Positions 6,694 through 28,377 of a stretch of 28,377 nt of DNA are shown here, piece after piece. Every line of letters starts with the position of its first letter. Within the stretch, counting starts at the first letter, position 1. Both the position numbers and the translations under genes were made by a program. The notes beneath the pieces were generated by a model. That model was not told the origin of the DNA. It was given only the letters and a program-made list of their open reading frames with translations, and searched no databases. This DNA comes from a virus: IMG/VR virus record IMGVR_UViG_3300030451_002690, positions 1-28,377 of that record; one strand, 5' to 3'.

Positions 6694-6871
6694 CGGTAAT
6701 GGCTTTACCCAAAAAGAAATGTTAAATTTAATACTAGAAGGACAACAAGACATAAATAAACGCATAGACGAATTGCACGAAAAAGTTAATCAGAAATTAT
6801 CAAGACAAGAATTAACTGGGTGGTTAGTTGCTATATCTGCATTAGTAGTACTAATCAACAGTGTTATATAG
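6677..6871 (+). CDS. XhlA-like small membrane protein (holin-associated)
   Basis: A 64-aa protein. I chose GTG 6677 over ATG 6662 because AGGAG at 6665-6669 is 7 bases before it. Residues about 12-45 form an amphipathic, coiled-coil-like helix (MLNLILEGQQDINKRIDELH, then EKVNQKLSRQELTG), followed by one C-terminal membrane segment (WLVAISALVVLINSVI). Coiled coil plus C-terminal membrane anchor is the layout of XhlA/haemolysin-type proteins that work with holins in phages of Gram-positive bacteria (established). The assignment rests on layout, not on a searched match. Its end overlaps the following secreted protein by 11 bases. Confidence 0.55.
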   Translation: MTTSHNGNGFTQKEMLNLILEGQQDINKRIDELHEKVNQKLSRQELTGWLVAISALVVLINSVI

Positions 6872-8519
6872 AATAGGCTTAGTCCTCCTCCTACTACTAC
6901 TATCACTTCCTGCAAGTGCAGAAGATGTACCTTACGAAGTTACAGTTAATGAGGCCTTTGAAGATAGTACATATGAAGAAGGCCTTACTGTTAGTGGTGG
7001 AAACCAAGACGCATTTATATATTGTAATGAACAAAATCAATATGGAACTACAGGTTGTTCATTAGCAATACAAAGTGGTACTTATGTCTTTGAATTTTCA
7101 GAAGATGTATATGAAGTAGGGTTTTTAGTAGGTGCAGTTAATCAAGCTTATAGTGTTAAGTATTATTATTCAGATGATACAGATGAAACTGTAAACAAAT
7201 CAGGTCAAGATAACTCTAATTTTTCTACTATGTATGATGAATTCTATAAATCATTTACAGATTATAACAATGACGAAGCTAACACAGATAAATTTATAAC
7301 TAAATTTGAAGTAACATTAAGTGACATTAGTGTATTAGATACATTATACTGGCAGTATGCTGATATACCTGTTACAACGACATCTAGTACGACAACAACA
7401 ACTACCACCACGACTACGACTACTACATCGACTACAACTACGACTACATTACCTAAAGCGGAAGATGTTGTCGAAGATAATGTCACTACTTACTTGGCTT
7501 GGGACGAATGGGGTTGCGAACATCCAGGCAATCCGTTATCGTTTAAGCAATATTTGGAGGCCGTAGAAAGTGGAGAATGGTTTGGATATATTCCTGATGA
7601 TTGTAGTAATAAACCTATTGTGGATGAAGTTCCTGAAGAGGTTGTAGAAGATGTGGTCGAAGAAATACTTGAGGATGTCGAAATCCCAGAAGAAGTTATT
7701 GAAGAAAAAGCTCCAGAACCAACAGAGGAAGAGCTAGCTGCTATTAAAGCTGAGGAGGAACGCCTCCTTCAAGAGCAACTTGATGCTGAAAAAGAAGAAG
7801 AAATCTTACTAGAACTTGAAGATTCTACTATTGTTGAAGACTTATCTGAAGAAGAAGTTGAAGAATTAGTTGAAGCTATTAAAGAAATTGAAGAAACTCT
7901 TGAAGTTATTGAAATAGAAGAAGAAGTTATAGAGCTGGACATTCCTGAAGATATCGTTACAATTATCGAAGAAGAGGTAAAAGATGATAATGATGTGGTA
8001 TTGGTTGTGGAAGATGAGCCAATTGAAGATGTTGTTGAAGAACAAATTGAAATCATTGAAGACATCGTTGTTGAAGAAATAACTGAAGAACAAATAGAGG
8101 TTGTTTCTGAAATAGTAGAGGAGGTTATTGAAAATGTTGAAGAGCTTACAGAGGAGCAAGTTGAAGTTGTTGCTGAAGTACTTAAAGTTGAAACTGAAGA
8201 TATTGCTATTATTGCAGAAGAAGCTAAAGAAGATGTTGTTATAGCTGAAGCTGTAGAAGTATTCGTAGAAAGAGCTGTAGAAAATGCAGATGTTGAAGAC
8301 TATACATTTGCAGATGTTGTTACTGAGATACAATTTGAAAACTTCATAGAAGACCCCATAGAAGTGATATTAGATATAGACATAGGAAAGATAGATATAA
8401 CTACCATTGGAGATGACATGACTCAAGACCAAAAAGAAAAAGCACAAGAAGTTGTAGTTCCTGTAATCTTGACTAGAATAGTCACTATGGCTTCATTTAT
8501 GTTTAGGAGAAGTGTATGA
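6861..8519 (+). CDS. Secreted protein with Thr-rich linker and long acidic Glu/Val repeats
   Basis: A 552-aa protein starting at GTG. Residues 1-20 are a clear signal peptide (IGLVLLLLLLSLPASA, cleavage before ED). Residues about 21-165 look like a beta-sandwich with two cysteines (FIYCNEQNQYGTTGC). Residues about 170-196 are almost pure Thr/Ser. A small domain with two more cysteines follows (WGCEHPGNPLSFKQYLEAV and YIPDDC). Residues about 250-440 are Glu/Val/Ile-rich heptad-like repeats (EEVVEDVVEEI and variants). The C-terminus ends in a hydrophobic segment (VVVPVILTRIVTMASFMF) and RRSV, which could be a membrane anchor. It lies among membrane and lysis genes and overlaps both neighbours. 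Export points to an envelope role (exclusion, lysis timing or virion surface). Long Thr linkers are common in secreted actinobacterial proteins. Confidence 0.6.
   Translation: MLYRIGLVLLLLLLSLPASAEDVPYEVTVNEAFEDSTYEEGLTVSGGNQDAFIYCNEQNQYGTTGCSLAIQSGTYVFEFSEDVYEVGFLVGAVNQAYSVKYYYSDDTDETVNKSGQDNSNFSTMYDEFYKSFTDYNNDEANTDKFITKFEVTLSDISVLDTLYWQYADIPVTTTSSTTTTTTTTTTTTTSTTTTTTLPKAEDVVEDNVTTYLAWDEWGCEHPGNPLSFKQYLEAVESGEWFGYIPDDCSNKPIVDEVPEEVVEDVVEEILEDVEIPEEVIEEKAPEPTEEELAAIKAEEERLLQEQLDAEKEEEILLELEDSTIVEDLSEEEVEELVEAIKEIEETLEVIEIEEEVIELDIPEDIVTIIEEEVKDDNDVVLVVEDEPIEDVVEEQIEIIEDIVVEEITEEQIEVVSEIVEEVIENVEELTEEQVEVVAEVLKVETEDIAIIAEEAKEDVVIAEAVEVFVERAVENADVEDYTFADVVTEIQFENFIEDPIEVILDIDIGKIDITTIGDDMTQDQKEKAQEVVVPVILTRIVTMASFMFRRSV
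7371..7451 (+). repeat. ACN codon repeat encoding a poly-Thr linker
   Basis: About 27 near-consecutive Thr codons using ACA, ACG, ACT and ACC with two or three Ser interruptions. The codons vary, so selection acts on the protein and not on a simple DNA repeat. The complement gives a spurious open frame of poly-Val. Confidence 0.8.
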
Positions 8520-8775: not shown

Positions 8776-9359
8776 TGGAATTAGAAGTATTAAGATTTAG
8801 TAGTCAGAAAGATTCTACATCTGGTGCATTGTTTGATGTTGTTAATGGTAAAAGAAACTTTCTTTGTTATACAATAGAAGATGAACAAAGAGATGTAAAA
8901 GTCTGGGGTGAAACCAGGATTCCCGCTGGGAGATACAAACTATCTTTAAGAAAAGAAGGTGGATTTCATACTAGATATTTAGCTAAGTATGGTGATATGC
9001 ACAAAGGTATGATACATGTGAATGATGTACCTGGATTTGAGTTTATCTTATGGCACACAGGTAATACTGATGAACATACTGCTGGTTGTTTAATCATAGG
9101 AGATTCACAAGAAAGTAACCTTGTGAAAAAGGATGGCTTTGTAGGTTCTAGTGTCGTTGCATATAAGAAAGTTTATCCTTATGTTGCAGCTGCAATAGAG
9201 AATGAAGATACATATGTGACATATATAGATTACGATGGTGATATACAGAGTAATGACACAGATAATCTACAAAGTAATGACATAATGGAAAAACTAGAAG
9301 AAATATCAGGCGAACTTCAAATATTAATTAACAAAGATAATAAAACTTGGTTTAGCTAA
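8775..9359 (+). CDS. DUF5675-family protein, candidate cell-wall-active lysis enzyme
   Basis: A 194-aa protein. Residues 1-140 match the DUF5675 pattern: RIPAGRYKLSL (48-58), MIHVNDVPGFEFILWHTGNT (79-98) and TAGCLIIGD (102-110). The HTGNT (His94) and AGC (Cys105) pair resembles the His/Cys arrangement of L,D-transpeptidase-like folds, so Cys105 is the likely nucleophile (inference from motif similarity). A C-terminal extension (about 140-194) is Asp/Asn-rich then helical (IMEKLEEISGELQILINK). GGAGG 7 bases upstream gives a good start. No other wall enzyme is seen on the plus strand, so this is the best endolysin candidate, next to a membrane protein that could be its holin. Confidence 0.65.
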   Translation: MELEVLRFSSQKDSTSGALFDVVNGKRNFLCYTIEDEQRDVKVWGETRIPAGRYKLSLRKEGGFHTRYLAKYGDMHKGMIHVNDVPGFEFILWHTGNTDEHTAGCLIIGDSQESNLVKKDGFVGSSVVAYKKVYPYVAAAIENEDTYVTYIDYDGDIQSNDTDNLQSNDIMEKLEEISGELQILINKDNKTWFS

Positions 9360-12300
9360 TGGCTACTCGTGCACAAAAAATAAAACTTCTTGAAGAAGTA
9401 TGGGACACATTACCATCTGCTATGAAAAATACTATTGAGAATGTTTATGGTGGCCTTAATAATTTAGAAGATATAGAACTTGAAGCATTTTATAAGCGTG
9501 CTAAAGATAACCCTACTACATTTTGGAAAGATTGGGTTGATGAACAAGAAGAATTATTTGGTAAACCAGATGAACCTCAAGGCCGTATAGGTAATGCATT
9601 AGATAGAGTTGCTGAAACACTTGGTTTAAATCCTGATGATTTAACTAAAAGAGAGGAAAAAGAATTATTACCTACTGATGAAGATACAGGTAGAGCTAGT
9701 CCTGAAATGAAAAAGAGAGCTTCTCCTAAAAATGAACTTCCTGAAAGTGTATTAAAGTATGTTAATAATTATAAGAAACAATTAGTAGATACTCAAGCAG
9801 AAACCATAGAACAAATGAAATATGGTGGTAAGAAAAGAAGTGATAAGGGACCTGCTCCTAAGCTAGAGAATTACAAAGCAGGTGGTGTACCTGACTTTGA
9901 ATTTATTGATAGAGGTAGAATAGCTAAAAGTGCTAATGTTTCTATTGACAGCTTAGAAATGGATTTACAAGATGACATACTTGAATTAGAACAGATTATA
10001 AGAAAGAAAAGTCAATTAAAAAAATGGTATGGTGAAGGTAATAGACACACTAAAGTTTTAACAGAAACCAGTCTTGAGTTAGGCGAAAGAATTCAAACTT
10101 TACAAAAAGGTTTAGCTGATATGTACTTTGATGCAAACATGGAGATATTAAAGAATGATGTATTTACTAAGATTGATGATAAGTATTATTTAAATGATAA
10201 TAATAGAACAATCTTAATACCTGAAGAAACTATTGTAGAATTAGCTAAAAGACAAGACAATGTAATTAGTGATTTTTCTTTGTTAAAAAGTAATATTGTA
10301 ACAGGTATCCCTAAGAAAACGATGGAGCTTAAGAATATTTCTCATATACCAGGCCAGGAATTAAGTGAGAGTGACAAGTTATTAGCTGATTTTAATAGAA
10401 GAATAATACATTCTGGATTTATACATGACCCTAACAATGCTACTTTAGATGAGATTGAAATGGCTAAGCATCACTGGAAGATGTCTGGTGAAATGGCAGG
10501 TAGTGGTAAAGCAGTAGTAACTTCAGAAGTAGCTTCTAATAATTTAATAGATATGGGAGACATGGGAGTAATTGAAGTACAAAGAAACCCTAAGTTTGAA
10601 CAAAGTGGTAGAGCTACTGAGCTTGGAGTAGTAGCTGAAATTGGAGATAGAGTATCTTTAGAAGAACAAATAGAACTTTTCGATAGAAGAAACAGTCACC
10701 CTGTTTTTAATTTTTCTGCATCAATGCAAGTTCAAATGGAAGACTTCGGATGGTTTCAAGTTGATAAAGATGGAAATGTTAAACCAGTAGATAGTGCTAA
10801 AAATGCAACCAACATTGGAGAAGCTTTAGAAAACTTAAAGAAAAATCCTAAAGGTGCAGAGATAGTTAAATTCTTAGGACTTTCACATTATACAAACAAA
10901 GATTGGCTTGAAAAAAATCAGAAAAAAACTGGTTTAACTCCAGATGATTTGATGAATAAAAGAATTAGGTCACAGCTACCTTTAGGTACAACTGAAAATA
11001 ATATATTTGGTAAGCCATTAAAACAAGGTCCTATTGTTAATAGTTTCTTGCATCAATTTTTAGATGATGGCAGTCTTGTTCATAATGCAGATGTATTTCA
11101 TTGGGATGAAGAAAAGATGACTATGTCATTAAGAAATATAGACAAATTACCTAAAGGAGTATTACAACAAGTAGGTACTGATTACTTTAAAACATATGAA
11201 ACATTACTAGCGTCAGGTATGGAGTTACCAGTAAAAAGAACGGTTAATCCTGTAGGAGGTAAAGCTAGTCTTGTTCCTTCTGTTAGGGAAACAATATTTA
11301 ATAAGTATTTAATACAGATTGATTTCTTAAATAAAAAAGATTTTAAAGGTATGGCTGACTCAGCAAAGATAGGTAAAGTAATACAAGATTTATATAAAAA
11401 TGTATTTGAACAACCTGATATTCCACTATTAACAAGTGAAGGTTACTTTGCTGAAAAGGGTATTAAAACTAGAGATGTTGTAGCTGTACTTGAAAAAGAT
11501 TTAGCTCAAATAGTAGAAGAATTTGAAAAGCTAGAAACTGGTGAAATATTTGGTGAAGATACTAAAGATAAATTTAAAAATCAAGATGTAGATTACACTT
11601 GGGAGAAACATCTTAATGAAGCTAAAGCTGTAAGGATGCAAATTACTACTGAACATAGAATGGGAAGTCAAGAAGCTAAGAGAAGATTACAATTTGACCC
11701 TACAACTGGATTTCAATTTTATGAAGGTGTTGAAAAGCAGGTTGAAACTAAAGCTATGAAAGGCTATATGAAGATAGCTAAAGAAATAGTTCCTGAATTG
11801 GATGAAAATATATCTATCAAAGCAACAAAAAATATAGATATACTTATTAAGAAAGGTTACTTGTTTCAAGATTTACCCAAATCTCCTGGAGAATTTTTAG
11901 AAAGAATGGAAATAGTGCTTCCTGAATCAAAAGTTTCAAGCGATATATTACAAGATAAACCATCTGTAGAAAAAAAGATAGAAGGTTATGGCAAGCGAAT
12001 AATGTTTAGTCAATATAAAACATATATGACTGAATTAAGTAAGAGTCCAGATTTTGTTAAAAGTACAAGTGAGTTTCCTTTTAGAAAATTTCCTGCTTTA
12101 TACGAACAATTAGTACCTGAATCAAAAGTTTCAATTTCAACAATAACAACTGGAGATTTACCTGCAGATATGGGAATGCATATACTTCAATCAAAAGAAA
12201 TACAACATGGCCTACCTACTGGTGCTTTATCTAGTGGAGATATAGAAACTGGTATTAGAACTGCAGCTTCATTAGAGTTCTTGAAAGATTTACAATCTAC

Positions 12301-12400
12301 TGCTAAACTATCAACAAGTGATATAACTAAGCAAGCTATACAAGGTGACTTTTATGACCAACTTAAAGACGCTTTAAAGTTGCTAGTTAAAAAAGGATAG
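9359..12400 (+). CDS. Large hypothetical protein (1013 aa), probable internal virion protein
   Basis: The longest gene here. It is charged, mostly helical and free of signal peptide, long hydrophobic segment or Cys clusters. Visible parts are a helical N-terminus (about 1-60), a basic low-complexity stretch (about 120-170), a coiled-coil-like region (about 195-255, LEMDLQDDILELEQIIRKKS), a beta-richer middle (about 380-650) and a helical Lys/Glu-rich C-terminus ending in a basic tail LKLLVKKG. I recognise no family or catalytic motif. Late position, size and composition fit an ejection protein or, less well, a tape measure. It begins at TAATG with no Shine-Dalgarno, so it is presumably coupled to the DUF5675 gene. 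Confidence 0.55.
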   Translation: MATRAQKIKLLEEVWDTLPSAMKNTIENVYGGLNNLEDIELEAFYKRAKDNPTTFWKDWVDEQEELFGKPDEPQGRIGNALDRVAETLGLNPDDLTKREEKELLPTDEDTGRASPEMKKRASPKNELPESVLKYVNNYKKQLVDTQAETIEQMKYGGKKRSDKGPAPKLENYKAGGVPDFEFIDRGRIAKSANVSIDSLEMDLQDDILELEQIIRKKSQLKKWYGEGNRHTKVLTETSLELGERIQTLQKGLADMYFDANMEILKNDVFTKIDDKYYLNDNNRTILIPEETIVELAKRQDNVISDFSLLKSNIVTGIPKKTMELKNISHIPGQELSESDKLLADFNRRIIHSGFIHDPNNATLDEIEMAKHHWKMSGEMAGSGKAVVTSEVASNNLIDMGDMGVIEVQRNPKFEQSGRATELGVVAEIGDRVSLEEQIELFDRRNSHPVFNFSASMQVQMEDFGWFQVDKDGNVKPVDSAKNATNIGEALENLKKNPKGAEIVKFLGLSHYTNKDWLEKNQKKTGLTPDDLMNKRIRSQLPLGTTENNIFGKPLKQGPIVNSFLHQFLDDGSLVHNADVFHWDEEKMTMSLRNIDKLPKGVLQQVGTDYFKTYETLLASGMELPVKRTVNPVGGKASLVPSVRETIFNKYLIQIDFLNKKDFKGMADSAKIGKVIQDLYKNVFEQPDIPLLTSEGYFAEKGIKTRDVVAVLEKDLAQIVEEFEKLETGEIFGEDTKDKFKNQDVDYTWEKHLNEAKAVRMQITTEHRMGSQEAKRRLQFDPTTGFQFYEGVEKQVETKAMKGYMKIAKEIVPELDENISIKATKNIDILIKKGYLFQDLPKSPGEFLERMEIVLPESKVSSDILQDKPSVEKKIEGYGKRIMFSQYKTYMTELSKSPDFVKSTSEFPFRKFPALYEQLVPESKVSISTITTGDLPADMGMHILQSKEIQHGLPTGALSSGDIETGIRTAASLEFLKDLQSTAKLSTSDITKQAIQGDFYDQLKDALKLLVKKG

Positions 12401-15830: not shown

Positions 15831-16371
15831 CTAAGTTCCATTCTTGAGGAACATCGGAATTATCCAACCACCATGATTTTCGCCACTTGCCTGTATGCTG
15901 AGGGCATTCCTCTGGTGTTTTGCCTGAACATACAAAGTCAGGACTTCTTTCTGATTTCTTATTGCGTCTGTTATCCCATACCATTCTCTGATTAGGGCAA
16001 GGACACTTTAAGTCATCACGATATTTATTTTGATTAGCCATTTCAGTGACTAACTTATCTGTTATCTCAGACACTTCAGTATCTGGTTCAGGTGTTATGT
16101 CTTTCACTTCACCCATTATACTAGATACTTTATTTATGATGTCCATATCTTCAAAACTTTCTTGAGAAAATACTTCAGGCATATCTGCCAGTTTCTCAAT
16201 ATAATCAAAGTATTTGTTTAATTGGTCATCATTGTATTCGGTTAACTTTGCAGGAAACTTTCTCAATTTAGCATATTGTGCAGCAGATTGTATTATCTTT
16301 TGCTTAGTCTCCTGTTGTTTACCTTCTAGCATAGTACCTATGGTTGCTCTTATAAACTCCATATCTTGCAT
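15814..16371 (-). CDS. Zinc-ribbon protein, probable partner of the annealing protein
   Basis: A 185-aa protein. The N-terminal 110 residues are helical and acidic. The C-terminal part holds a Cys cluster: CPCPNQRMVWDNRRNKKSER, then SPDFVC, TPEECPQHTG and KWRKSWWLD, a treble of Cys and Trp-rich strands like zinc ribbons that bind single-stranded DNA. Its ATG forms a TAATG junction with the stop of the Rad52-type gene, so both are made together. Such zinc-ribbon proteins often follow phage single-strand annealing genes. A role as an annealing accessory is inferred. Confidence 0.6.
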   Translation of the reverse strand: MQDMEFIRATIGTMLEGKQQETKQKIIQSAAQYAKLRKFPAKLTEYNDDQLNKYFDYIEKLADMPEVFSQESFEDMDIINKVSSIMGEVKDITPEPDTEVSEITDKLVTEMANQNKYRDDLKCPCPNQRMVWDNRRNKKSERSPDFVCSGKTPEECPQHTGKWRKSWWLDNSDVPQEWNLDGKVQ

Positions 16372-16913
16372 TAGAATGGTGCCTCCGCAATAGTCCCATC
16401 ATCATTTAACAACAAGTCTTCCATTGCTCTAGGTTCTGGGTCTGGTACTTTGTTCTCTTTCAAACGCATATCCTTTTTAGTAACTTGAACTGAAGCTTCT
16501 CTTGCTACTTGTGCAGCATGTTCTTCTTCTGTTTGTGTTGAACCTGACCATAGTTCTACACCAAGGCCAAACCTCATACAAGCTCTCTTGAATGCGTCTG
16601 ATTCTGCGTCTTTTAGATTTGTGCCATCATTAAACTTGTCACTGTTTAATTTAAAGGTATCTATATCTCCAAATCCGTCATAGCTTCCCATGCCGTCTAT
16701 TGTTATAGTTCCTTTAGCACCTACAATACGGTTCTCTCCGTTATGTGTTCCATATATTGGTTCACATGTCCAACTATATTTAATCCCACTATCTCGTAGT
16801 CTTTCTACATAATTAGCATGTGGTACATAGTCTCCAAACTTCCCAGCTGGTGCTGAACGCACCAAATTACTAGGAAAAGGGGACAGTAGTTTACCGGTAT
16901 CTATTTCTACCAT
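16371..16913 (-). CDS. Rad52-type single-strand annealing protein
   Basis: A 180-aa protein with AAGGA 5 bases before the ATG. Recognisable blocks are YVPHANYVERLRDSGIKYSW (29-48), a beta hairpin region (IVGAKGTITIDGMGSYDGFG) and the signature KDAESDAFKRACMRFGLG (101-118) followed by ELW, typical of the Rad52/Rad22 fold in phage recombinases. These proteins coat single-stranded DNA and anneal complementary strands for recombination-dependent replication. The C-terminal 50 residues are acidic and probably disordered (PDPEPRAMEDLLLNDDG), as in many SSB-interacting tails. A GTTA-loop hairpin with a conserved flank lies just upstream. Confidence 0.75.
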   Translation of the reverse strand: MVEIDTGKLLSPFPSNLVRSAPAGKFGDYVPHANYVERLRDSGIKYSWTCEPIYGTHNGENRIVGAKGTITIDGMGSYDGFGDIDTFKLNSDKFNDGTNLKDAESDAFKRACMRFGLGVELWSGSTQTEEEHAAQVAREASVQVTKKDMRLKENKVPDPEPRAMEDLLLNDDGTIAEAPF

Positions 16914-16937
16914 GATTTCCTTCCTATATGTTAAAAT

Positions 16938-16970
16938 AGAGAAAAAGCATTTGGTATCCGTTAGGATACC
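16938..16970 (-). promoter_or_regulatory. GTTA-loop hairpin with conserved flank, upstream of the Rad52-type gene
   Basis: A perfect 7-bp stem GGTATCC/GGATACC (16953-16959 with 16964-16970) closes the loop GTTA (TAAC on the minus strand). The adjoining plus-strand flank GAGAAAAAGCATTT is nearly identical to one beside a second GTTA hairpin at 24753-24785. On the minus strand the order is hairpin, AAATGC, TTTTTCTCT, then 25-odd bases to the ATG. It could be a weak terminator or a protein-binding leader element. Confidence 0.6.
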
Positions 16971-16975
16971 TTCAC

Positions 16976-21243: not shown

Positions 21244-21781
21244 TTTCTTCCTGCTCCTTAAGCCATTGTTCTGCTAATTCACCTGTATGTTCAGTATGGT
21301 TCATTACTTCAGTTATTGAACGATTAATCATTGAATCTTCATTCTCTTTCATAACTACTTGTATACTTGTAGGTTCACTAAAGAACATTCTATTGAACAA
21401 ACCACTGTTACCCATATTGGCTAGTATTGTAGCTTGTTCATCAGCTGTTTCGTTACCGTCTAATCCAGCTATCCAACCTGTCATTAAAGAAGCTTTACGA
21501 TACGCATCAATTCTCATTGCAGCGTCTAATGCTTCCTTAGGTCCTATAGCTGTTACTTCATATCTAGTTGCGACTTCATCATATTCCTCTAAGTTTAGGA
21601 ACTTGTCATCCCAAAAGGATATATGTTCGTCATCTCTTTGATATGTTAATATTACTATATAATCATAGTTCTTTCCCACAGGCAATTTTATACTATCCCT
21701 ATGGTGAAACATGGCCGACATTATGAAGTCTTTATCCTCACAATTGTCACCACATGCACAAGTGTCTTCATTTTCACTCAT
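21227..21781 (-). CDS. Hypothetical protein with N-terminal Cys cluster (184 aa)
   Basis: Starts MSENEDTCACGDNCEDKDF, with three cysteines in seven residues (CACGDNC) that could bind metal. A beta-rich part follows (YDYIVILTYQRDDEHISFWD), then helical segments (GPKEALDAAMRIDAYRKASL) and an acidic tail. No family is recognised. It lies within the leftward operon, overlapping both neighbours, upstream of the ATPase/VWA pair. Confidence 0.55.
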   Translation of the reverse strand: MSENEDTCACGDNCEDKDFIMSAMFHHRDSIKLPVGKNYDYIVILTYQRDDEHISFWDDKFLNLEEYDEVATRYEVTAIGPKEALDAAMRIDAYRKASLMTGWIAGLDGNETADEQATILANMGNSGLFNRMFFSEPTSIQVVMKENEDSMINRSITEVMNHTEHTGELAEQWLKEQEENGDTK

Positions 21782-22076
21782 ATATTTTCCCTTCTTCTAC
21801 TTCCCAAGGTTCAAAGTTAGCGTGACATCTCTCACACCACCATAATTCTGAATGTTCATCATCAAATAGTAAATCACCATTACATAATGAACAGTAGAAT
21901 CCTTCGGGTATTTCTTCTTGTGTAGTAAGTGCAAGCATATCTTCTATAATACGCTGCTCTATAAGCAGCTGTTTATTGTTATACTTCCACCATTTTATAA
22001 TGTTATAATTAAACTCACGCAGTCTTATATAGACTTGTAAGTAGAATCGTTTGTAATCGTTATATGTCATCCTCAT
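21774..22076 (-). CDS. Zinc-ribbon protein (100 aa)
   Basis: I choose ATG 22076, which has AAGG 6 bases upstream; a TTG two codons earlier and an ATG two codons later are alternatives. The N-terminal half is basic and aromatic (YKRFYLQVYIRLREFNYNII). The C-terminal half has a classic zinc ribbon: CSLCNGDLLFDD, a linker, then WWCERCHANFEPWEV. The start overlaps the end of the previous gene. It probably binds nucleic acid; no specific role can be given. Confidence 0.6.
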   Translation of the reverse strand: MRMTYNDYKRFYLQVYIRLREFNYNIIKWWKYNNKQLLIEQRIIEDMLALTTQEEIPEGFYCSLCNGDLLFDDEHSELWWCERCHANFEPWEVEEGKIYE

Positions 22077-22275
22077 TGTCAACCTTAATTTCTATTAAGT
22101 CAATTTGGTGACTAGTAAATGTAAACAACTTATTGTTATCAGCTAGTTTTACAAGTTCATCAACTTGTTCATCTATCTGTTCACTAGTTGTATTTTCGGG
22201 GAATGTAAATGTAACCACTACATCTTTGTCCCATGTTCGTTTCATGGTGTTCTCATAAACATAAGGTTCACTCAC
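22060..22275 (-). CDS. Small hypothetical protein (71 aa)
   Basis: Starts at GTG with GGGAGG upstream. The sequence shows a beta hairpin (DVVVTFTFPENTTSEQIDEQ) then a helix (VDELVKLADNNKLF) and another strand (IDLIEIKV) with an acidic end. The beta-alpha-beta plan resembles a small ferredoxin-like fold. Function unknown. Confidence 0.55.
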   Translation of the reverse strand: MSEPYVYENTMKRTWDKDVVVTFTFPENTTSEQIDEQVDELVKLADNNKLFTFTSHQIDLIEIKVDNEDDI

Positions 22276-22475: not shown

Positions 22476-22865
22476 TACACTCCTTCCTCTATCTTTTTTT
22501 ACATAGATAGCATAGAGCACACATTATTTTGTATCCCCATACAAGTATCACTAATTATAATATGCACTCTGTGCTATCTATCTCGGTCATATGGCAGCAG
22601 GGTAACAACCATATTCCTACCATAGATAGCTTGATATGTTCAAGGAAAGTATCTTAGGACACAAAGGAGGCCGGTTATGAATCCGGTCAATTTAACCTCG
22701 ATACTTATTACCACACAAACCCTAAACATATCAAGCTACCTATAACTATATTCGCAAAGTAGATATTTATTTATACTTCTGTTATAGATAGCTTGCTACG
22801 CACACTAACTCGGTTAACACAGTCGTGTTTCATACTGTGGTCGTTAATGTGCATAACTCTGCTAG
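22476..22865 (-). ncRNA. Structured non-coding region with four large hairpins
   Basis: No convincing gene fits here. Hairpin 1: 22503-22527 with 22557-22581, 25 bp. Hairpin 2: ATATGG/CCATAT (22589-22594 with 22609-22614). Hairpin 3: 22622-22640 with 22725-22743 (19 bp), enclosing AAGTATC/GATACTT (22647-22653 with 22700-22706) and a CCGG/CCGG stem. Hairpin 4: GCACACTAAC/GTTAATGTGC (22800-22809 with 22843-22852) enclosing CACAGT/ACTGTG. ATAGATAGC starts the left arms of 1 and 3 and recurs at 22784 near hairpin 4. Mismatched positions on the plus strand mostly become G-U pairs on the minus strand, so an RNA transcribed leftwards is favoured. It may be a leader of the downstream genes or a free RNA. 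Confidence 0.65.
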
Positions 22866-23432
22866 TTAGTCTTTATATTCTTCATCAACAGATGCTTTGA
22901 TTAATTTATCTAAGTTATTACTTACTTTCATATTATCTGCAACATGCTCTTCTGTCATTGGATATTTGTCAATATGAATTCCTGGTTCGAATTCATACTG
23001 CACATTATCTATTATAATGATATCATATTTTACAGCAATATCGTGCAATAGTTTCCAGGGTGGTCCCCATGCAGATTGAAATGTGATTATCTTTTTACCT
23101 TCATTATTAGTAAATACTTCTGTTTCACAATCACCCCATTTGGTTCCCCAATTTTTATATTGCCAATCAATTGATTTGTATGTGCCATATTTCTCTGTTA
23201 ATTCATCTTTACGAATGTCTAACACTGGTCTAGCACCCTCATCATCTTCATACCAAGCGTCAACTCTAACACCATCAAATTCTCTACTACCTTGATGTAT
23301 TTTGTCAAGTTCGTCTGGTACGGGCATAAGTGCTGCTAAATTATTATTTTTTGATGATAGCTCCGTAAAGAATGCTTTCACATTCTCTACAGGGCCGTCA
23401 ATAATTAGTAAGTTGTCTGTCCAATTAGGCAT
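22866..23432 (-). CDS. Api92-like (DUF1281-type) protein
   Basis: I choose ATG 23432, giving the typical N-terminus MPNWTDNLLIIDGPVENV with GGGGGA upstream; a longer frame to 23489 adds only a basic lead. Family marks in the 188-aa product are the MPNW start, the beta-alpha pattern (KAFFTELSS), WQYKNWGTKWGDCE and ITFQSAWGPPWKLLHDIAVK, followed by YEFEPGIH. Proteins of this ferredoxin-like Api92 type are widespread in phages and plasmids and their function is not established. It overlaps the previous gene by 8 bases. Confidence 0.7.
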   Translation of the reverse strand: MPNWTDNLLIIDGPVENVKAFFTELSSKNNNLAALMPVPDELDKIHQGSREFDGVRVDAWYEDDEGARPVLDIRKDELTEKYGTYKSIDWQYKNWGTKWGDCETEVFTNNEGKKIITFQSAWGPPWKLLHDIAVKYDIIIIDNVQYEFEPGIHIDKYPMTEEHVADNMKVSNNLDKLIKASVDEEYKD

Positions 23433-24243: not shown

Positions 24244-24274
24244 AAAAAAAGGTGCTAGGGGGCTCTCACCCCCC
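24244..24274 (-). terminator. G/C-rich hairpin with T-run, possible (partial) terminator
   Basis: On the minus strand GGGGG and CCCCC (24273-24269 with 24262-24258) can pair, or GGTG can pair with CACC next to a run of seven T (24250-24244). It lies just after the stop of the first leftward gene and before the second, so it could limit expression of later genes. The spacing between the stronger stem and the T-run is long. Confidence 0.5.
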
Positions 24275-24288
24275 AACATTCCCTTTAG

Positions 24289-24696
24289 TTACTCAGAGTA
24301 ACCCCAAAGTTCCTTAGTCATAGAAGGTGCCTTGTAGATGCCTTTTATCACTAATTGGGTGCCTAAGTTATTCCATTTCCCTGTATCAGGGTCTTTGTAT
24401 GATTGCTCTTGTGCAACTGCCTCAATAAGGACTGGCTCGGTCTTAGGTCTACCGTTCTCTCCCTTAGGTGCGTTAGCAACCAATTGTTGCAGTTGAGTTG
24501 CAGTATCGTTATCTGCATTATTAAATGCCTTTGCAATACTGCGATTGTTTTTACCTACGAACTTAACGCCATAGAAAACACCATTTCCCATAGTTCCTAA
24601 TTCGTTAGGGTCTTTTGTGATTGTAGTAAAGAAGCCTACTTCTCTTAGTGTTCCTAAGTTCACTAGAGCTCCTGTATACTCTGTTAATATACTCAT
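24289..24696 (-). CDS. First gene of the leftward operon, hypothetical protein (135 aa)
   Basis: Two adjacent ATG codons occur; the second (24696) is better spaced from AGGAG. The protein is a mix of beta strands (GVFYGVKFVGKNNR; TQLVIKGIYKAP) and an Asn/Ala/Gln-rich helical middle (NADNDTATQLQQLVANAP). Its position at the head of an early operon, a small beta-rich fold and downstream recombination genes would suit a single-stranded DNA-binding or early host-takeover protein, but no signature proves this. Its leader carries a GTTA hairpin with a conserved flank. Confidence 0.55.
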   Translation of the reverse strand: MSILTEYTGALVNLGTLREVGFFTTITKDPNELGTMGNGVFYGVKFVGKNNRSIAKAFNNADNDTATQLQQLVANAPKGENGRPKTEPVLIEAVAQEQSYKDPDTGKWNNLGTQLVIKGIYKAPSMTKELWGYSE

Positions 24697-24752
24697 CATA
24701 CTCCTCTCTTTAAGTTATATTAATTGATTTGTTTAATATAATGAGTTATAAA

Positions 24753-24785
24753 AGAGAAAAAACATTTGGTCCTCGTTAGAGGGCC
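24753..24785 (-). promoter_or_regulatory. GTTA-loop hairpin with conserved flank, upstream of the first leftward gene
   Basis: Stem GGTCCTC/GAGGGCC (24768-24774 with 24779-24785, one wobble) closes the loop GTTA. The plus-strand flank GAGAAAAAACATTT differs at one base from that at the 16938-16970 element, while the stem sequences differ entirely but remain paired. This is the pattern expected of a conserved structure. Confidence 0.6.
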
Positions 24786-24864
24786 TACACTCCATTTAAT
24801 TTTAATATAATGTAAGCAAAGGGGAACTATAGAGTCTAAAGTAACTACAAATTAAAGCAAAAGT

Positions 24865-24947
24865 AAACCGTTAGCTTTCATACCGTTAGGTTGCGTTAGC
24901 AAAGGTCGTTAGACCTACGGATGTTAATCCGGCTGTTCGTTAGAACA
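24865..24947. repeat. Array of six tandem mini-hairpins sharing a GTTA loop
   Basis: Six GTTA tetranucleotides each sit between inverted repeats. Stems are AAACC/GCTTT (one C-C mismatch, loop 24870-24873), ACC/GGT (loop 24885-24888), TTGC/GCAA (24895-24898), AGGTC/GACCT (24908-24911), CGGAT/ATCCG (24923-24926) and TGTTC/GAACA (24939-24942). Stem sequences all differ; only loop and pairing are kept. Loop spacing is 10-16 bases. On the minus strand the loops read TAAC. The array lies in the divergent control region between the leftward operon and terminase. Confidence 0.7.
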
Positions 24948-25231: not shown

Positions 25232-27148
25232 ATGTCTAACAAGCCTCATAAAGTATGTGCAGGAACTGGGTGTAAAAAATGGTTAAAAGGGAAGCAGAGA
25301 CGCTTCTGTTCTACCACTTGTAATAAAAGAACCTGGGCACAAGAGAAAGCAGCAGGTAAAGAGAACATTACCAAGGCTATTAATAAAGAATTAAAGTCCG
25401 ATACTGGTGACTATGCTTCTGTAAGGAGGGGTTCTTACTATGAAGAGTTTAAAGCAACCTATGCAGAAGACTTATCAGGGGGCCTTATCACCACAGCTGA
25501 AGTAGCAGAGGCCATTGGCACAAGCTCAGCTACTGTTTCTCGCATGCTCGCTGCCTACAAGATAGACAGAAATAATGAGATTGAGGCCGAAGACTGGCAA
25601 CTAAGTGACGCCCAGACTGAAATATTAAAAAATTTTTCTAGCTTTCGCTCAAAGTATTTTGCTACAGAAACAGGAGAAAAATTCGAGACTGCAGACTTTC
25701 ATGAAAACTGGATATATAACATAGAAGACTCTATACAGAATGGTAAAGAGCTATTAATACTGTCACCCCCCAGACATGGAAAGACAGAACTGTTAATACA
25801 TTTTGCTATATACCAAATAATGAAGAACCCCAACATAAGAATCATGTGGGTTGGAGGTAACGAGGATATTGCCAAGAACGCATTAAGCTCTGTATTAGAA
25901 CATCTTGATGATAACGAAAGATTGATAGAAGACTTCTGTCCTCCTGGAAAGAATTTTAAACCTGATAACCGTTCAGGAAAGAACTGGTCACAGAATCAAT
26001 TCACTGTAGGTACTAGAACAGTACCAGGTATTAAATCACCAACTATGGTTGCTATAGGTAAGGGTGGAAAGATTCTCTCTCGTGACTGTGACTTGATTAT
26101 TGCTGATGACATTGAGGACCATCAGACTACAATGCAACCTGGTGCAAGAGAGAACACTAGACAGTGGTGGACCACTACTCTCTCATCAAGGAAAGAGGAA
26201 CATACTGCTGTAGTAGTGATTGGTTCAAGACAACACTCAGATGATTTATATCACCACTTACTTGCTAATGATAGTTTTACAACAATAGTTGAAACAGCAC
26301 ATGATATAGCTTGTCCTATACCTGACCATTTTGAAGAGGAACATGTTGAGTGTATGTTATGGCCAGGAAAAAGAACTTTCCCTTGGTTAATGTCTCGTAT
26401 GCGTGCAGCAGAGACTACAGGTGGTAGAAAGATTTATGAAATGGTTTATTACAATCAGGCCTTTGTTGAAGGTACACAAATCTTTACTATGGATATGATT
26501 GATAATTGTTTTAGGCCAGACTTGACGATAGGGCAGATACCAGGTGGATTGCATTTAGTTGCAGGACTTGACCCAGCTTCGTCAGGATATCAGGCAGCTG
26601 TACTATGGGGAATAAACTCCTATAGAGGTGAGCTTTTCTTAATTGATTTAGAGAATAGACAAGGTGGGGGAGTGAAGCATGCTTTACAGATTATGTCTGA
26701 CTGGTATCACAAATATGATTTACAACATTGGGTAATTGAAGAAAATGGTTTCCAGACTGCTATTAGACAAGATGATAAAATAAAAGAATTTGTTTTAAGG
26801 TCAGGTATAACTATGCAAGGACATGTTACTGGAAAAAATAAACATGACCCTATGTATGGTGTAGGTTCTATGGCAGGTTTATTTGAAAATAATAAAATTC
26901 ATTTACCAGTTGGAAATAGTGAAAGTATAGCTAAAATAAATGCTTACAAAACACAGTTATTATATTTTGATGGAAAACCTGTTTCTGTGCGAAACAAAGA
27001 AAAAACTGATATAGTAATGGCTGGATGGTTTCCAATGAAAGTGTTCAGAAGAATGAACAAAGAACAACTTGCGACTATGGGACTAGATTATAACGCAAGT
27101 CACACAAATTTTAAAGGAAGCGACTATAATGAGGCACCATGGGGATAG
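25232..27148 (+). CDS. Terminase large subunit with N-terminal zinc-finger and HTH region
   Basis: A 638-aa DNA-packaging motor and nuclease. Residues 9-30 hold four cysteines (C9, C14, C26, C30) in a basic zinc-finger-like loop. Residues about 86-110 are a helix-turn-helix (TTAEVAEAIGTSSATVSRML), a fold usual in small terminase subunits. The ATPase has Walker A SPPRHGKTE (178-186) and Walker B DLIIADDIED (287-296). The C-terminal nuclease has GLDPASSG (Asp447), VIEENGFQ (Glu503/504) and KHDP (Asp539) as likely metal ligands. ATPase and nuclease motifs are complete. No separate small terminase is seen in the window, so the N-terminal part may do its DNA-recognition job. The end overlaps the portal start by 10 bases. 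Confidence 0.9.
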   Translation: MSNKPHKVCAGTGCKKWLKGKQRRFCSTTCNKRTWAQEKAAGKENITKAINKELKSDTGDYASVRRGSYYEEFKATYAEDLSGGLITTAEVAEAIGTSSATVSRMLAAYKIDRNNEIEAEDWQLSDAQTEILKNFSSFRSKYFATETGEKFETADFHENWIYNIEDSIQNGKELLILSPPRHGKTELLIHFAIYQIMKNPNIRIMWVGGNEDIAKNALSSVLEHLDDNERLIEDFCPPGKNFKPDNRSGKNWSQNQFTVGTRTVPGIKSPTMVAIGKGGKILSRDCDLIIADDIEDHQTTMQPGARENTRQWWTTTLSSRKEEHTAVVVIGSRQHSDDLYHHLLANDSFTTIVETAHDIACPIPDHFEEEHVECMLWPGKRTFPWLMSRMRAAETTGGRKIYEMVYYNQAFVEGTQIFTMDMIDNCFRPDLTIGQIPGGLHLVAGLDPASSGYQAAVLWGINSYRGELFLIDLENRQGGGVKHALQIMSDWYHKYDLQHWVIEENGFQTAIRQDDKIKEFVLRSGITMQGHVTGKNKHDPMYGVGSMAGLFENNKIHLPVGNSESIAKINAYKTQLLYFDGKPVSVRNKEKTDIVMAGWFPMKVFRRMNKEQLATMGLDYNASHTNFKGSDYNEAPWG

Positions 27149-28377
27149 AAAATATACAAATTAAAAATTATCAAGAAATAGTAGATAACGCTACTCAACT
27201 TGTTTCAGGGAAACCTAGTAAGCACAGACAAGTGCAAAAAGCAAGGATTAAAGCAATATTAAATGGTGGAGCTGACGGAATGAAAGCTCTATTAGGAAAT
27301 GCAATGGAAACATCAGATGCAGATTTATTACCTGCACCTAACATGCTTCAATCTGGTATTGATAGACTTGCTCAGAAAATATCAGGTGTACCACAAGTTA
27401 GAGTAGATATCTTAAATCACAATACTTCTGACAGAGCTAAAAGAAGAGCAGAGAAGTTAGAGAGAATTGTTACATCATATGATGAAAGTCAAAATCTTAA
27501 TTTACAGTTAAGTCAGGCAGCTAGATGGTTGCCGGGATACGGTTATGCTGCGTGGATAATAACGACAAGAACAGATAAAAATGGTTATATATACCCAACA
27601 GCAGAACTCCGTGACCCTTATGACACATTCCCTGGAAACTTTGGTCCTAACCAAGAACCTAGAGAGTTAGCTGTATTAAGAAGAATACCAAGATATAAGC
27701 TTGCTCAACTCTATCCTGAGTATGCTAAAGATATCTTAAATCCACCTGAAGAAGAAACATCTGAAACAGCTTTTGGAAGAGGTGGTGTTGGAACTCAATA
27801 TCAAAATGATAAAGAGAATAATTGGGAAGATAATACGGGGCAGGGTGTTCGAATTATAGAATACTACGATGTAGGTGGAACTTATGTTGTATTCCCGGAA
27901 AAGAAAATGATTCTAGACTTTGTTCCGAATTATCTTTCTACTCCACCTTTTGTGTTTATGAAGAGAACTTCTTTTGATGAACTAAAAGGACAATATGACC
28001 ACATTATTGGTTTGATGGGTATGATGGCCAAAATTAATATTATGTCATCAATAGCTATGGAAGACTCTGTATTTACAGAGACAAACATATCTGGAGAATT
28101 AGAATCTGGACAATATAGAAAAGGTAGATTTGCAATTAACTATCTTGCTCCAGGTACACAAGTTTCTAAACCACAAAATAATATACCTTATCAATTGTTT
28201 CAACAAGTAGATAGGTTAGAAAGACAACTTAGATTAGTAGGTGGTTATCCAGTTACTGATGATGCTCAATCACCTAACTCATTTGTTACTGGTGCAGGAT
28301 TACAAGAACTTAATGGAACTATGTCATTAATGATTAATGAATATAGAGAAATAATCAAACATGGTATTGAATCTATG
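27139..28377 (+). CDS. Portal protein (partial, runs off the window end)
   Basis: 413 codons remain open to the last base. It starts at ATG 27139 inside the end of the terminase gene. Features include an N-terminal helical region, LPAPNMLQSGIDRLAQKISG followed by PQVRVDI (typical of the portal wing), WLPGYGYAAWIITTRTDKNG, and AELRDPYDTFPGNFGP leading to PRELAVLRRIPRYKLAQLYP. The YGxxxWxI...DP...FPG pattern resembles SPP1 gp6/actinophage-type portals. The dodecameric portal is the channel for DNA and the docking site of terminase. The immediate downstream position after terminase is the standard order. Confidence 0.8.
   Translation, partial: MGIENIQIKNYQEIVDNATQLVSGKPSKHRQVQKARIKAILNGGADGMKALLGNAMETSDADLLPAPNMLQSGIDRLAQKISGVPQVRVDILNHNTSDRAKRRAEKLERIVTSYDESQNLNLQLSQAARWLPGYGYAAWIITTRTDKNGYIYPTAELRDPYDTFPGNFGPNQEPRELAVLRRIPRYKLAQLYPEYAKDILNPPEEETSETAFGRGGVGTQYQNDKENNWEDNTGQGVRIIEYYDVGGTYVVFPEKKMILDFVPNYLSTPPFVFMKRTSFDELKGQYDHIIGLMGMMAKINIMSSIAMEDSVFTETNISGELESGQYRKGRFAINYLAPGTQVSKPQNNIPYQLFQQVDRLERQLRLVGGYPVTDDAQSPNSFVTGAGLQELNGTMSLMINEYREIIKHGIESM

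Follow-up and report, generated by a model that had tools for sequence, protein, structure and literature searches.

Conserved hairpin-plus-box elements ahead of early genes in a marine phage group, and their possible role as promoters with an extruded DNA hairpin

The viral DNA analysed here (28,377 nt, hereafter the window) belongs to a 43,662-bp virus record in IMG/VR (IMGVR_UViG_3300030451_002690). Its minus strand encodes annealing, exonuclease-like and AAA proteins, and its plus strand the terminase and virion genes; the term "early" is applied to the former from gene order and content, not from expression. Six short GTTA-centred inverted repeats lie between the leftward early gene block and the rightward terminase gene (25232-27148), i.e., in the divergent control region where a preliminary description of the sequence had placed them. 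The first early gene of the leftward block gave no Pfam or PHROG match, and is followed by a likely intrinsic terminator (24253-24278); in relative G001 its stem is capped by a TAAC loop.

Table 1. Features of the window discussed in the text, with positions counted from its first nucleotide.
Feature	Position	Strand	Details
Array of six GTTA-centred inverted repeats	24865-24947	.	GTTA starts 24870, 24885, 24895, 24908, 24923, 24939
First array unit	24865-24878	.	AAACC-GTTA-GCTTT; interrupted stem, C-C mismatch
Older family-wide element	24907-24931	-	Consensus about GATTRACATAGGTAGGTCAAA; distant relatives have it but lack the TAAC hairpin array
Complete element before the first early gene	24745-24786	-	R1 match, 42.6 bits, E 7e-6
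Stem-loop of element 24745-24786	24768-24785		GGTCCTC-GTTA-GAGGGCC, 7 bp including one T-G; GTTA 24775-24778 on +, TAAC on -
Box of element 24745-24786			TCT 24753-24755; TATTNT-like 24748-24753; invariant purine 24747
Complete element before the Rad52/ERF-like annealing gene	16930-16971	-	R1 match, 49.4 bits, E 2.7e-7
Stem-loop of element 16930-16971	16953-16970		GGTATCC-GTTA-GGATACC, 7 bp; TCT 16938-16940, purine 16932
First early gene	24289-24699	-	136 aa; downstream of element 24745-24786
Rad52/ERF-like single-strand annealing protein	16371-16913	-	PHROG 3290, E 1.6e-9; downstream of element 16930-16971
Putative zinc-ribbon early protein	21774-22082	-	102 aa; weak candidate for the reading factor

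All six inverted repeats of the preliminary description are present, with GTTA-to-GTTA spacings of 15, 10, 13, 15 and 16 nt. The last four have perfect stems of 4, 5, 5 and 5 bp, and two are weak, i.e., the second (a 3-bp stem, ACC/GGT) and the interrupted first. To gauge chance occurrence, the 532-nt intergenic region was shuffled 10,000 times with its dinucleotides preserved; GTTA hairpins of at least 4 bp then numbered 0.0275 on average and 2 at most, against 5 observed; no loop sequence whatever reached 4 such hairpins in the shuffles. Because shuffled sequence never matched the observed number, the cluster is not due to chance, and the objection that sequence of the same composition might yield similar runs falls away.

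In close relatives the order and spacing of the array units are kept to approximately ±1 nt, the outermost gap excepted (16 or 11 nt), and this spacing is kept even where the relatives' stems shrink to GC-TAAC-GC. Two hairpins of the array arose on top of the older family-wide element. Both the spacing conserved at weak stems and the older element at the same place would suit sites for a double-stranded-DNA regulator or a replication initiator (iterons, an origin) for which structure is immaterial. We nevertheless regard such sites as distinctly unlikely, since a reader of the duplex would keep the arm sequence, whereas four pairs of the hairpin vary in type yet stay complementary (see below), and since the elements precede several separate early genes.

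The preliminary description took the array itself as the element. Its hairpins are real, but the working unit, which it missed, is a hairpin together with a box at a fixed distance, and the stem-loops at 24768-24785 and 16953-16970 were absent from it. On the minus (early-gene) strand, the full unit consists of a 6-bp hairpin with a TAAC loop, i.e., G-NNNN-C-[TAAC]-G-N'N'N'N'-C, followed after 13 nt by TCTATTNTR. The window holds two complete copies, both on the minus strand, of which the one before the annealing gene is conserved at the orthologous site in those relatives within the group that cover it. Among relatives gathered via the terminase, the annealing protein and whole records, 32 non-redundant copies were found, all in one monophyletic marine phage group, all on the early-gene strand and most of them with an early start codon approximately 45-80 nt further on. 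Invariant across the 32 copies are the outer G-C pair, the T-A-N-C loop, the T-C-T and a purine six bases past the TCT; the closing C-G pair is present in 31. Only 23 of the 32 have A at the second position of the box, and G is nearly missing from the stretch between the stem and the invariant purine.

The relatives' GTTA hairpins occur in a single orientation and recur with different stems that still pair. Pairs 2-5 were formed in 121 of 128 cells, compared to 47 on average and at most 70 in 10,000 shuffles, a count inflated by selection because the 32 copies had been chosen for having five or more of the six pairs; the covariation score was 0.769, versus 0.155 in shuffles and at most 0.14 in slid controls. 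In an unselected check, the pattern CTNNCG-N18-TCT-N4-TR, which leaves pairs 2-6 free, gave 23 distinct matches in nine group genomes, every one of them on the early strand, with at least 3 of the 4 free inner pairs formed and with G-C at pair 6. Likewise, each of the 10 occurrences of the strict box T[CT]TCTATTNTRA in these genomes was accompanied by a 6-bp hairpin at the fixed spacing. At the sequence level, pairing of the hairpin stem is thus shown to be under selection, and the covarying stem pairs and near-fixed loop bear out the earlier proposal of selection on shape plus loop.

A covariance model of the element (R1) found its true matches at E-values of 1e-8 to 1e-4, with the next best at 0.2, and no match outside the hairpin-carrying group; the copies from which R1 was built necessarily fit it, and it is the gap to the next match and the absence outside the group that are informative. 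In pattern scans of the whole collection, fully paired complete elements were, among the matches listed, almost solely from the group, and the other matches listed behaved like chance. An Rfam search returned no match. R1 gave no match in the window to the first array unit, which is a decayed copy of the promoter-type hairpin; its counterpart, nearest the early genes, is intact and has a box in several relatives (G002, G004, G006 and G007).

The preliminary description had read the loop on the minus strand as RNA, where TAAC becomes UAAC, a member of the UMAC class of GNRA-like tetraloops; our literature search found no paper on UMAC loops. A folded early transcript would be expected to contain G-U pairs, and none was found among the variable stem pairs on that strand (nor any one-side-changed cell of the G-U type), favouring a DNA hairpin. 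Stem mismatches on the early strand are C-A, A-C, T-C, C-T and A-A; on the template strand all eight, a small and partly non-independent sample, are of the G·T, G·A or T·T type, as with the C-A mismatch of the hairpin at 24768-24785, which is T-G on the plus strand. With DNA folding parameters the template (GTTA) strand was the more stable in 32/32 copies, an advantage that comes partly from a constant loop term. The loop of this strand is G-N-T-A in every copy (GTTA, GCTA or GATA). With loop G at position 1, A at position 4 and C-G closing in 31/32, it conforms to d(cGNNAg), a type of DNA loop reported as extra stable in a passage of PMC8373063 that cites Nakano 2002. A DNA hairpin is also the simpler reading because any RNA copied from the template strand would run antisense to the early genes. 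Together, the sequence data indirectly favour a DNA hairpin on the template strand, with its GNTA loop, over a UAAC RNA hairpin, and the tetraloop claim is not upheld: in addition to the missing G-U pairs and to mismatches better accommodated on the opposite strand, one lineage uses TAGC and TATC loops, which fall outside the UMAC class.

The same data bear on the possibility that the UAAC-loop hairpin and the U-rich box act within the early mRNA leader, in stability, processing or translation. The elements do sit ahead of ribosome sites, UAAC is plausible as an RNA loop, and some distant relatives (e.g., L374, L376, L389 and L435) carry long, very dissimilar hairpins directly upstream of the ribosome site of the same annealing gene. 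However, the absence of G-U among the variable pairs, the C-A, U-C and A-A mismatches on the transcribed strand, the additional use of TAGC/TATC loops and the fixed base-pair distance to a short box all speak against it, and we consider a leader element unlikely for the group. For the distant hairpins, DNA parameters favoured the template strand in 18/32 cases and the sense strand in 5/32, and across the family an RNA role for the early leader may exist.

The hairpin of the group changes its loop between lineages. G004 and G006 are close relatives; the loops of G004 are TAAC at all sites seen, and those of G006 are TAGC or TATC at every site examined, array and promoters alike. A single trans-acting factor that recognises the loop would be expected to produce such a change in concert within a genome. 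Distant relatives have different hairpins in the same intergenic region, and in the other family lineages no conserved hairpin-plus-box was found, nor any loop or box in common with the group; because they share neither, the element is lineage-specific. A GAA triloop, as in N4, was noticed in lineage G008 and dropped, as it is not kept in the close relative L016.

To our knowledge, the textbook case of promoters acting as small extruded DNA hairpins is that of phage N4 and close relatives. In N4, supercoiling drives the extrusion, a single-strand-binding protein activates the promoter, and transcription starts approximately 11 nt from the loop. N4 promoters are template-strand hairpins with fixed plus variable-but-paired stem bases and a sheared G:A in the loop (PMC4496689). 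The elements described here resemble N4 early promoters (including those of LIT1/LUZ7) in being short hairpins of fixed and variable-but-paired bases upstream of early genes, in favouring the template strand (here from mismatch types and DNA energies), and in a loop with G...A ends and a C-G closing pair (PMC4496689, PMC3715699). In contrast to N4, with its 5-7 bp stems and 3-nt purine-centred loops, they have stems of 6-7 bp and a GNTA tetraloop (GTTA, GCTA or GATA), an extra conserved box approximately 13 nt past the stem and a tandem hairpin array, in a genome of about 44 kb and in a phage group with no recognisable giant virion RNA polymerase. Given the different loop size, and as the searches turned up no N4-type polymerase, we do not class the element as an N4 promoter. 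DNA hairpin promoters of the N4 kind were nevertheless one of the options named at the outset, and this option gains support from the strand, mismatch and position data.

The box offers a second comparison. Its TATTNT resembles a sigma-70 -10 element, and the hairpin loop lies near the -35 position. Unlike sigma-70 promoters, however, in which a TTGACA-like -35 stands 16-18 nt from a TATAAT-like -10, a hairpin of variable sequence occupies the -35 region, and an invariant T-C-T overlaps the start of the box. With A at its second position in only 23/32 copies, the box is also an imperfect -10. The T-rich tract that follows the hairpin at some sites is also reminiscent of intrinsic terminators or attenuators of early operons; the site before the ERF gene was flagged as terminator-like, and in G001 a TAAC loop also caps what is probably a genuine terminator behind the first early gene. 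That the elements are terminators is nonetheless highly improbable, as the 24745-24786 unit before the first early gene and the array have no upstream early-strand gene to terminate, the array hairpins lack T tracts, many stems are weak and A/T-rich, and the conserved TCT...TATTNTR box would have no role in termination.

We therefore favour, as the probable though sequence-based reading, that the GTTA hairpins form the upstream half of a bipartite early promoter whose template-strand hairpin is extruded. Upon entry of the phage DNA, negative supercoiling would extrude the template strand (C-GTTA-G) as a small hairpin, of which a protein or RNA polymerase would read the fixed bases, i.e., the closing C-G, the outer G-C and the GNTA loop. 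This reader would thereby be placed on the TCTATTNTR box, and transcription would start near the invariant purine; if TATTNT serves as the -10 element, the hairpin loop falls at -35. The reader might be a virion polymerase too divergent for recognition, or the host polymerase together with a phage factor. The array we take to be a set of further hairpin units lying upstream of the first early promoter, probably additional binding sites for the factor that reads the promoter hairpin.

Among the early genes, the putative zinc-ribbon gene is a weak candidate for this factor. It is present in 8/8 group genomes covering the locus and in no genome outside the group, a link that shared ancestry explains equally well given that the group is monophyletic. 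No RNA polymerase was recognised by motif regexes, Pfam, PHROGs or a PDB profile of the 1938-aa virion protein; the PF00940 search matched nowhere and is hence uninformative, and one polymerase search matched in no control either. AlphaFold models of the two halves of the 1938-aa protein matched nothing, but were of too low confidence for a verdict (pLDDT 58 and 53). This protein occurs family-wide and is nearly free of cysteine, as has been noted for N4-type virion polymerases, but here each of the six virion proteins tested (1938, 1514, 1013, 538 and 413 aa and a part-read putative portal) was without cysteine, compared to nine in the terminase (regions compared: L088 1146-14360, window 9359-12397 and 27139-28377). 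The 1013-aa protein was rejected as the reader: its locus differs strongly between TAAC and TAGC/TATC phages but is variable family-wide. The virion locus at window 9359-12400, beside a conserved 194-aa gene, carries very different proteins of 200-1271 aa in relatives. The 61,426-bp G002 record (L092-L095) seems chimeric, with a 99.9% copy of the 1938-aa gene and a second, 54% copy. No isolate relatives of the annealing protein or the 1938-aa protein were found, and a host look-up yielded just two MAG contigs, from different phyla.

Elsewhere in the window, a long early-strand gap (22521-22868) bears repeated AAGCTATCTAT motifs, and similar GTGTGTTACAAGCTATC blocks precede an early gene in relatives; the gap is possibly a structured RNA, and gave no Rfam match. 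A long threonine-codon run lies at approximately 7357-7486 (+) within the 552-aa gene 6861-8519.

Finally, the elements could represent a second, independently evolved class of DNA-hairpin promoter, in which a template-strand GNTA tetraloop hairpin stands in for the -35 ahead of a TCTATTNTR box, is served either by a polymerase that escaped recognition or by that of the host together with a phage factor, and follows a loop code that changes in concert throughout the genome; we put this forward tentatively, as somewhat short of an even chance. The concerted loop shift between close phages suggests that a trans-acting reader has altered its specificity, and loop differences such as that between G004 and G006 offer a natural route to finding it. 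The hairpin-plus-box element is a compact, testable unit, and if the proposal is true, shape-reading transcription start arose or spread more widely than the N4 group.
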